37,161 nucleotides of DNA from Ignavibacteria bacterium (lineage in GTDB: Bacteria; Bacteroidota; Ignavibacteria; Ch128b): positions 1 to 37,161 of the forward strand of contig VGVX01000021.1 of assembly GCA_016873845.1 (NCBI GenBank), read 5' to 3'. The first letter of the stretch is position 1. Every line of letters begins with the position of its first letter. Both the position numbers and the translations under genes were made by a program. Positions 36,081 through 37,161 of the stretch are shown here, in pieces. Under the pieces are notes generated by a model. The model searched no databases and was not told the DNA's origin. It saw only the letters and a program-made list of their open reading frames with translations.

Positions 36081-36153
36081 TATTAAATTTAATTTCGAAG
36101 TAGTTTTATTGAAATATAACTATTATGGACAGACAATTCTATTATTGAATTAA

Positions 36154-36183
36154 TTGCTGCCACCGACCGGTCGGTGACAGCAG
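36154..36183. repeat. Palindrome at the breakpoint of the hydrogenase remnant
   Basis: The centre CACCGACCGGTCGGTG is a perfect 16-base palindrome. It is extended by GCTG/CAGC arms, broken by one mismatched pair, to about 28 bases. It is much richer in G+C than its surroundings. The first hydrogenase-like codons begin immediately after it. The shape resembles operators of TetR-type regulators, but no such gene is adjacent. It might also mark a rearrangement or assembly joint. Confidence 0.75.
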
Positions 36184-36190
36184 TAAAATT

Positions 36191-36502
36191 GTGGAAGCTC
36201 CGCGAGGAACTTTGACTCATCACTACATTACAGATGAAAAAGGAATCTTGAAAAGAGCAAATTTAATTGTAGGAACGACAAACAATTACGCACCGATTTC
36301 AATGTCAATAAATAAAGCCGCTCGCGGTTTGATTAAAAAAGGTTCGGAAATTACAGATGGTGTTTTGAATAAAATTGAAATGGCATTTCGTGCTTACGAT
36401 CCTTGTTTCGGTTGCGCAACACATTCGTTGCCTGGGCAAATGCCAATGACAGTTCGTGTTTTCGATTTACAAGGAAATTTGCTTACTGAAAGATCACGTT
36501 AG
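36191..36502 (+). pseudogene. C-terminal remnant of a NiFe-hydrogenase large subunit
   Basis: 103 residues matching only the end of a group 3-like NiFe-hydrogenase large subunit, normally over 400 residues. EAPRGTLTHHY (2-12), NLIVGTTNN and the C-terminal metal motif DPCFGCATH (70-78, Cys72 and Cys75) are present, followed by an extension (SLPGQMPMTVRVFD...) that the maturation protease would cut after His78. The N-terminal RxCGxC-type metal motif and the whole catalytic core are absent. The frame is closed by a TGA at 36146, and upstream codons do not resemble the family. GTG at 36191 is a formal start with no ribosome site. The stop overlaps the GTG of the protease by one base, as in intact hydrogenase operons. 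Truncation by deletion or an assembly join are both possible. Confidence 0.88.
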
Positions 36503-36975
36503 TGAAAATCGCGATTGTCGGCATCGGTAATCCGATTCTTTCAGACGATGCCGTTGGTCTTATAGCAGCCGAGAGATTATTCGAAACTATTTCAAAATCT
36601 CTCGACTGTTCTTTAATTATTCATTCCGAAGATATGATGTCTCTCATCGAAAGACTTTCAGTTTATGATTTTGCGTTTATTATTGATTCATTTCGCGATG
36701 TTGAGCATGTAGGAGAAGTTTTTGAAGTAAAACTTGATGAAGCGAAACTTTCCCGATTTGTGTCTCCGCACACACTCTCTTTCGCAAATATGCTTTCCCT
36801 CTATAAAGCTTCGAATATAAAATTGCCGAAAATTACTTTGTGTGGCATTGCAGTTAAAGATGTTGATACGTTCAAGGAAGAACTTTCTGACGAAATCAAG
36901 ATCAAATTACCGACAAGTGTCGAATCACTGAGAAGATTTTTTTTAGGTGAGTTAAAAAAAATGGTTAATAAATGA
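36502..36975 (+). CDS. Hydrogenase maturation protease
   Basis: 157 residues of the HycI/HybD/HoxW family, which clips the C-terminal extension from the hydrogenase large subunit after nickel insertion. GIGNPILSDDAVG (7-19) is the opening motif. Asp16, Asp62 (FIIDS) and His90 (SPHTL) occupy the places of the nickel ligands Glu16, Asp62 and His93 of HybD. The GTG start overlaps the stop of the large-subunit remnant by one base. The protein looks intact although its substrate gene here is not, so it either serves another hydrogenase or is left over from a decaying operon. Confidence 0.92.
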   Translation: MKIAIVGIGNPILSDDAVGLIAAERLFETISKSLDCSLIIHSEDMMSLIERLSVYDFAFIIDSFRDVEHVGEVFEVKLDEAKLSRFVSPHTLSFANMLSLYKASNIKLPKITLCGIAVKDVDTFKEELSDEIKIKLPTSVESLRRFFLGELKKMVNK

Positions 36976-37000
36976 AAAAGCCAAGCGAATTTGCTTGGCT
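36975..37000 (-). terminator. Rho-independent terminator of the response regulator gene
   Basis: AGCCAAGC and GCTTGGCT pair around a 6-base loop and are followed on the minus strand by five U. It begins 29 bases past the response regulator stop and may also block transcripts from the protease gene. Confidence 0.82.
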
Positions 37001-37029: not shown

Positions 37030-37161
37030 TTATGCTATCGCTTCCTCAGTAACTTTTGTTAATTCCTCAGGTGTAAATGGTTTTGAAATAAAATTGAATG
37101 CACCAAGTTTTGTTGCCTCGATTGCAGTTTCAATTGTTGCGTAACCTGTAATCATTATAAC
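37030..37161 (-). CDS. Response regulator receiver domain, C-terminal end only
   Basis: The frame is open from the right edge to a TAA at 37030-37032, giving the last 43 residues of a CheY-like receiver: VIMITGYATIETAIEATKLG, then AFNFISKPFTPEEL. The switch Thr (in MITGYA) and conserved Lys (in SKPF) are visible; the phosphorylated Asp lies beyond the window. The protein ends directly after the receiver's last helix, so any other domain must be N-terminal to it. The partner kinase is not visible. Confidence 0.88.
   Translation of the reverse strand, partial: VIMITGYATIETAIEATKLGAFNFISKPFTPEELTKVTEEAIA

Follow-up and report, generated by a model that had tools for sequence, protein, structure and literature searches.

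Near the right-hand end of the window, a 37,161-nt stretch of DNA that makes up the whole of contig C21, the 3′ end of an Mvh/Vhu-like [NiFe]-hydrogenase large-subunit gene (mvhA) stands without its head, bordered by a dispersed hairpin element on one side and an intact maturation protease gene on the other (Table 1). The locus is probably what remains of a duplicate Mvh-type operon, the ancestral copy of which was recently beheaded at the REP-like hairpin. Most likely this is ordinary recent gene loss rather than a new kind of gene. The host genome is a metagenome bin of 162 contigs with an estimated completeness of 98.2% and a contamination of 0.36%.

Table 1 Features at the right-hand end of the window (positions in the window).
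Feature	Position	Strand	Basis or remark
38-bp dispersed hairpin (REP-like) element, TTAATTGCTGYCACCGACCGGTCGGTGACAGCAGTAAA	36150..36187	+	Right edge coincides with the breakpoint
3′ fragment of an Mvh/Vhu-like [NiFe]-hydrogenase large-subunit gene	36188..36502	+	PF00374, profile positions 428-508 of 508, 31.8 bits (cut-off 25.8); homology to the C17 paralogue
Intact HycI/HupD-family hydrogenase maturation protease gene	36502..36975	+	TIGR00072, 85 bits, positions 5-145; PF01750
Terminator-like hairpin between the convergent protease and response-regulator genes	36979..37000	-	Consensus match only; ~1 expected in shuffled sequence
Two-receiver response-regulator gene, 3′ end	37032..37161	-	Continues in contig C111

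The reading frame of the tail (36191-36502) opens with a GTG codon and encodes 103 amino acids, the length given for the remnant in an earlier note made from the sequence of the window. It corresponds to the last ~104 of the ~487 large-subunit residues and ends with a TAG stop codon at 36500-36502. Also as described there, the remnant retains the C-terminal metal-ligand motif DPCxxCxxH, as DPCFGCATH at ~36401-36427, together with a C-terminal extension of 25 residues after the histidine, and its stop codon shares one nucleotide (36502) with the GTG start of the protease gene. The N-terminal RxCGxC ligands and the full-length fold of a functional large subunit are missing. Homology to the paralogue on contig C17 begins at an isoleucine codon (ATT, 36188), one codon ahead of the GTG, and the sequence after the junction shows neither a good start codon nor a Shine-Dalgarno site. 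A promoter scan of the locus returned matches at chance level only. There are no frameshifts, internal stops or lost conserved sites in the frame, which leaves the truncation as the sole mark of a pseudogene. By similarity, the tail is assigned to group 3c (Mvh/Vhu-like).

The protease adjoining the tail, already noted as intact, comprises 157 residues, and its family matches span the full length of the protein. It also matches the HybD structures 1cfz and 2kml, and the candidate metal-binding residues Asp16, Asp62 and His90, which correspond to the metal ligands known for HybD, are all in place. The protease may still be expressed, and the C17 protease, to which it is 58% identical, may make it redundant. 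The contig ends 186 bp past the protease gene. Its positions 37035-37161 are identical to positions 1-127 of contig C111 and no other overlap length fits; C111 carries, in this order and all on the minus strand, genes for the two-receiver response regulator, an NtrC-type regulator and a Cache histidine kinase.

At the DNA level the window resembles C17 from 36188 to about 36862, through the mvhA tail and into the protease gene (74% over 677 columns). Across the 36 nt to the left of 36188, the two sequences match at 9 positions, the level expected by chance. Position 36188 directly abuts the hairpin element, and the mvhA remnant starts at the element's edge or at most a few bases away from it. 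The earlier note had described a sharp break close to a 16-base palindrome. As that palindrome (36161-36176) is the core of the 38-bp element, and homology sets in right after the element, the break is sharper still than was stated.

The 16-bp core occurs in the genome in eight exact copies and in 23 copies when up to two mismatches are allowed. A reversed-sequence control of the core has no copies in the genome, and none of 196 other genomes in the class contains the exact core; the palindrome is thus not a chance occurrence. In an alignment of 21 copies of the element, similarity is confined to about 38 columns, outside of which the sequences are unrelated. Four of the 11 stem pairs are changed on both sides, a result reached by none of 500 shuffles, with the copies used in this comparison chosen partly by their core sequence. 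The other copies examined lie mostly between open reading frames, so that the element is a dispersed, mostly intergenic hairpin with covarying arms, as REP sequences are. Some 20 further copies are distributed over contigs C1, C3, C4, C11, C15, C20, C30, C36, C54, C55, C58, C71, C79 and C94, several of them clustered on C20, C71 and C1, and the central bases vary. An Rfam search returned nothing meaningful, the palindrome was not found in viral contigs, and a literature search for it yielded only the PaaR operator of Burkholderia. The PaaR-type operator of Burkholderia cenocepacia, ACCGACCGGTCGGT (PMC2770484), has a 14-bp core identical to that of the element. The identification of the element as such an operator was rejected, as ~20 copies with a variable centre and compensating changes in the arms fit a hairpin and not a fixed operator.

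An intact operon of the same type is present on contig C17 of the same genome, in the order MvhD-MvhG-MvhA-protease and with an MvhA of 487 residues. The best NCBIfam match of this MvhA is VhuA (396 bits, below the equivalog cut-off); the neighbouring genes match VhuG (236 bits, likewise below the equivalog cut-off) and FlpD/MvhD (127 bits). With VhuA/MvhA as the best match and MvhD and MvhG as neighbours, the C17 paralogue is assigned by similarity to group 3c (Mvh/Vhu). At the amino acid level the window tail is 88% identical to its C17 counterpart, and the best identities to genes in other genomes are at most 82% for the tail and at most 34% for the protease. A tree of the tail groups the window and C17 sequences with support of 99/95, which points to the two copies being sisters. 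The window branch is longer than that of C17 (0.20 vs 0.054), a difference that is derived from few columns, carries little weight and is equally compatible with relaxed constraint and with an older divergence.

MvhD starts at the end of C17 (L031 15167-15574). Contig C105 ends within an HdrA-like gene (L169 3-809), which is preceded by NuoF- and NuoE-like genes. Because C105 ends in an HdrA-like gene and C17 starts at MvhD, we infer that the two contigs probably belong to one operon. Approximately 1 kb of HdrA between them is missing from the bin. The N-terminal part of the beheaded subunit and its small subunit, for which the earlier note had looked to the rest of the genome, did not come to light there: searching the genome with PF00374 for the N-terminal half of mvhA retrieved only the full genes on C39 (group-1-like), C14 (3b-like) and C17, plus the window tail. 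MvhG is found on C17 only, with a distant relative on C14, and the genome contains a single close HdrA, the one at the end of C105. The ~2% of the genome absent from the assembly could hold the missing 5′ part.

The right flank of the locus is conserved. In Ignavibacteriae NC_groundwater_1713 (L096), a complete NuoF-HdrA-MvhD-MvhG-MvhA operon is followed by response-regulator, NtrC and histidine-kinase genes on the minus strand, which are 64, 68 and 63% identical to the C111 genes and have the same order and orientation. Since the C111 gene set stands beside a complete operon in this relative, the window tail appears to be the 3′ end of the operon in its ancestral place; the evidence, from one relative, is good but not broad. 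The C17 copy sits in a different neighbourhood. The comparison of synteny with relatives thus bore out the right flank, with a complete operon facing the same convergent genes, and gave no usable match for the left, where the neighbouring gene, encoding a 613-residue membrane/TPR protein, has only a 28% match within the taxonomic order and affords no empty-site comparison. No relative with an empty site or with the arrangement before the deletion occurs among the genomes compared, and the order of events, duplication before deletion, is therefore only an inferred one. The two-receiver response regulators of C111 (L153, 2-1153) and L096 (6717-8054) contain a repeated linker motif (IDVDMPF...). 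The gene set with the two-receiver regulator that adjoins Mvh operons may regulate the hydrogenase.

The preservation of the tail bears on the age of the break. Relative to the C17 paralogue, pS is 0.641 and pN is 0.067, with omega about 0.05, and of the 56 positions that are conserved at >90% among 109 relatives, none is changed in the window. When unconstrained point mutation of the 312-nt tail was simulated, six substitutions left these sites intact and introduced no stop codon in <4% of the trials, and eight did so in <1%. Hence, at most about 5-6 neutral substitutions would have accumulated since loss of function, and the tail had acquired almost all of its differences from C17 before the break, under selection as part of a complete gene. 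The tail is better preserved than would be expected of a long-standing pseudogene. This implies that the beheading happened very recently relative to the duplication, that the tail is still selected, or that the junction is not real.

The first of these is the preferred reading. The genome would formerly have carried two copies of the HdrA/MvhDGA-protease operon. Of these, the one in the ancestral neighbourhood, beside the convergent response-regulator/NtrC/histidine-kinase set, would recently have lost its 5′ part, comprising roughly four fifths of mvhA together with the genes upstream of it, through a break exactly at the edge of one of the dispersed 38-bp elements. A dead mvhA tail and a still intact protease gene would have been left over, and hydrogenase would be supplied by the paralogous operon on C17, which probably continues upstream on C105. 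Recent operon loss, one of four possibilities put forward when the fragment was first described, gains in this way from the intact paralogous operon, the ancestral neighbourhood and the undegraded coding sequence. It would represent an operon loss caught at so early a stage that the surviving frame is still undamaged, with the break tied to the exact edge of an element; if the element causes such breaks, this lineage is a clean example of gene loss associated with a repeat.

A junction created during assembly is unlikely, although several observations would suit it. A complete second operon would then stand at this place, with the 5′ neighbour on C21 mis-joined to it by way of the repeated hairpin. 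The junction coincides with a repeat that is present ~20 times in a fragmented metagenome bin, the tail shows no decay, and the assembly could have missed the 5′ part of a second operon, as it seems to have missed the middle of HdrA between C105 and C17. However, the exact 127-bp overlap of C21 and C111 indicates a de Bruijn assembly with a final k of 127, which far exceeds the 38-bp element. Moreover, a mis-join via the element would still need a real site at which the element abuts ATTGTGGAAGC inside mvhA: repeat-induced mis-joins keep local adjacency, so that some molecule had the element directly before ATTGTGGAAGC and mvhA was interrupted anyway. GC and GC3 are also alike on both sides of the junction. 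The suggestion of a mis-join is accordingly disfavoured.

It is improbable that the tail has been kept on purpose as a functional stand-alone C-terminal peptide, either a substrate or decoy for the neighbouring protease, which would bind or cut it, or a split subunit comparable to VhuU. The absence of change at the conserved sites, the low omega and the intact adjoining protease do favour such a peptide, but a recent break explains the conservation equally well, because the divergence is for the most part older than the break. Translation would have to begin without a good start codon or ribosome-binding site, the N-terminal ligands are absent, and the one other copy of this type is complete as it stands. 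VhuU is a split-off large-subunit C-terminus, as is reflected in its NCBIfam model. The split lies near the DPxxxC motif itself, whereas the break in the window precedes the motif by ~70 residues and falls far upstream of the VhuA/VhuU boundary; in addition, a complementary N-terminal gene is found neither in the locus nor orphaned elsewhere in the genome. The precedent is the separate selenocysteine-containing subunit VhuU of Methanococcus (PMC2933860).

A second MvhA tail that lacks its head, from a different family of the class (G040:C5; L179 7603-8001, minus strand), could be taken as a parallel, its preservation and that of the window tail then both reflecting selection. It is internal to a 148-kb contig and starts at GQVEAPRG, within about five codons of the window breakpoint. 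A frameshifted piece of HdrA is attached to this tail and no protease lies beside it; the case looks like decay by internal deletion, independent of the window tail. The near coincidence of the two starts is curious, but two cases noticed post hoc are not evidence. The G040 tail adjoins a tRNA-Phe gene. The proposal of a separately expressed peptide draws on conservation and has no conserved parallel.

A programmed or strain-variable rearrangement, in which recombination at the hairpin would switch the N-terminal part between an on and an off position, would account for a junction exactly at the edge of a multi-copy element, but it is highly improbable, as no orphan MvhA N-terminus, MvhG or HdrA end was found beside another copy of the element in the assembly, the copies examined avoid coding regions for the most part, and the neighbourhood contains no recombinase.

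Recent loss of the ancestral operon copy thus remains the preferred explanation, with the element playing a presumed role in the deletion and the tail presumably non-functional. Family matches to the hydrogenase C-terminus in metagenome bins may therefore be headless remnants and are not to be counted as extra hydrogenases. With the group 3c-like MvhA/VhuA subunits, the tail shares its C-terminal sequence, the DPCxxCxxH motif and the extension after the histidine. In contrast to those subunits, whose partners are MvhD, MvhG and HdrA-like and NuoF-like proteins, it adjoins neither MvhG nor MvhD. The protease resembles the HyaD/HybD/HycI endopeptidases in its full length, family match and candidate metal ligands, and differs from them in adjoining a headless substrate gene. 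The element shares with REP-like dispersed palindromic elements its short length, multiple copies, mostly intergenic location and compensated stem changes.
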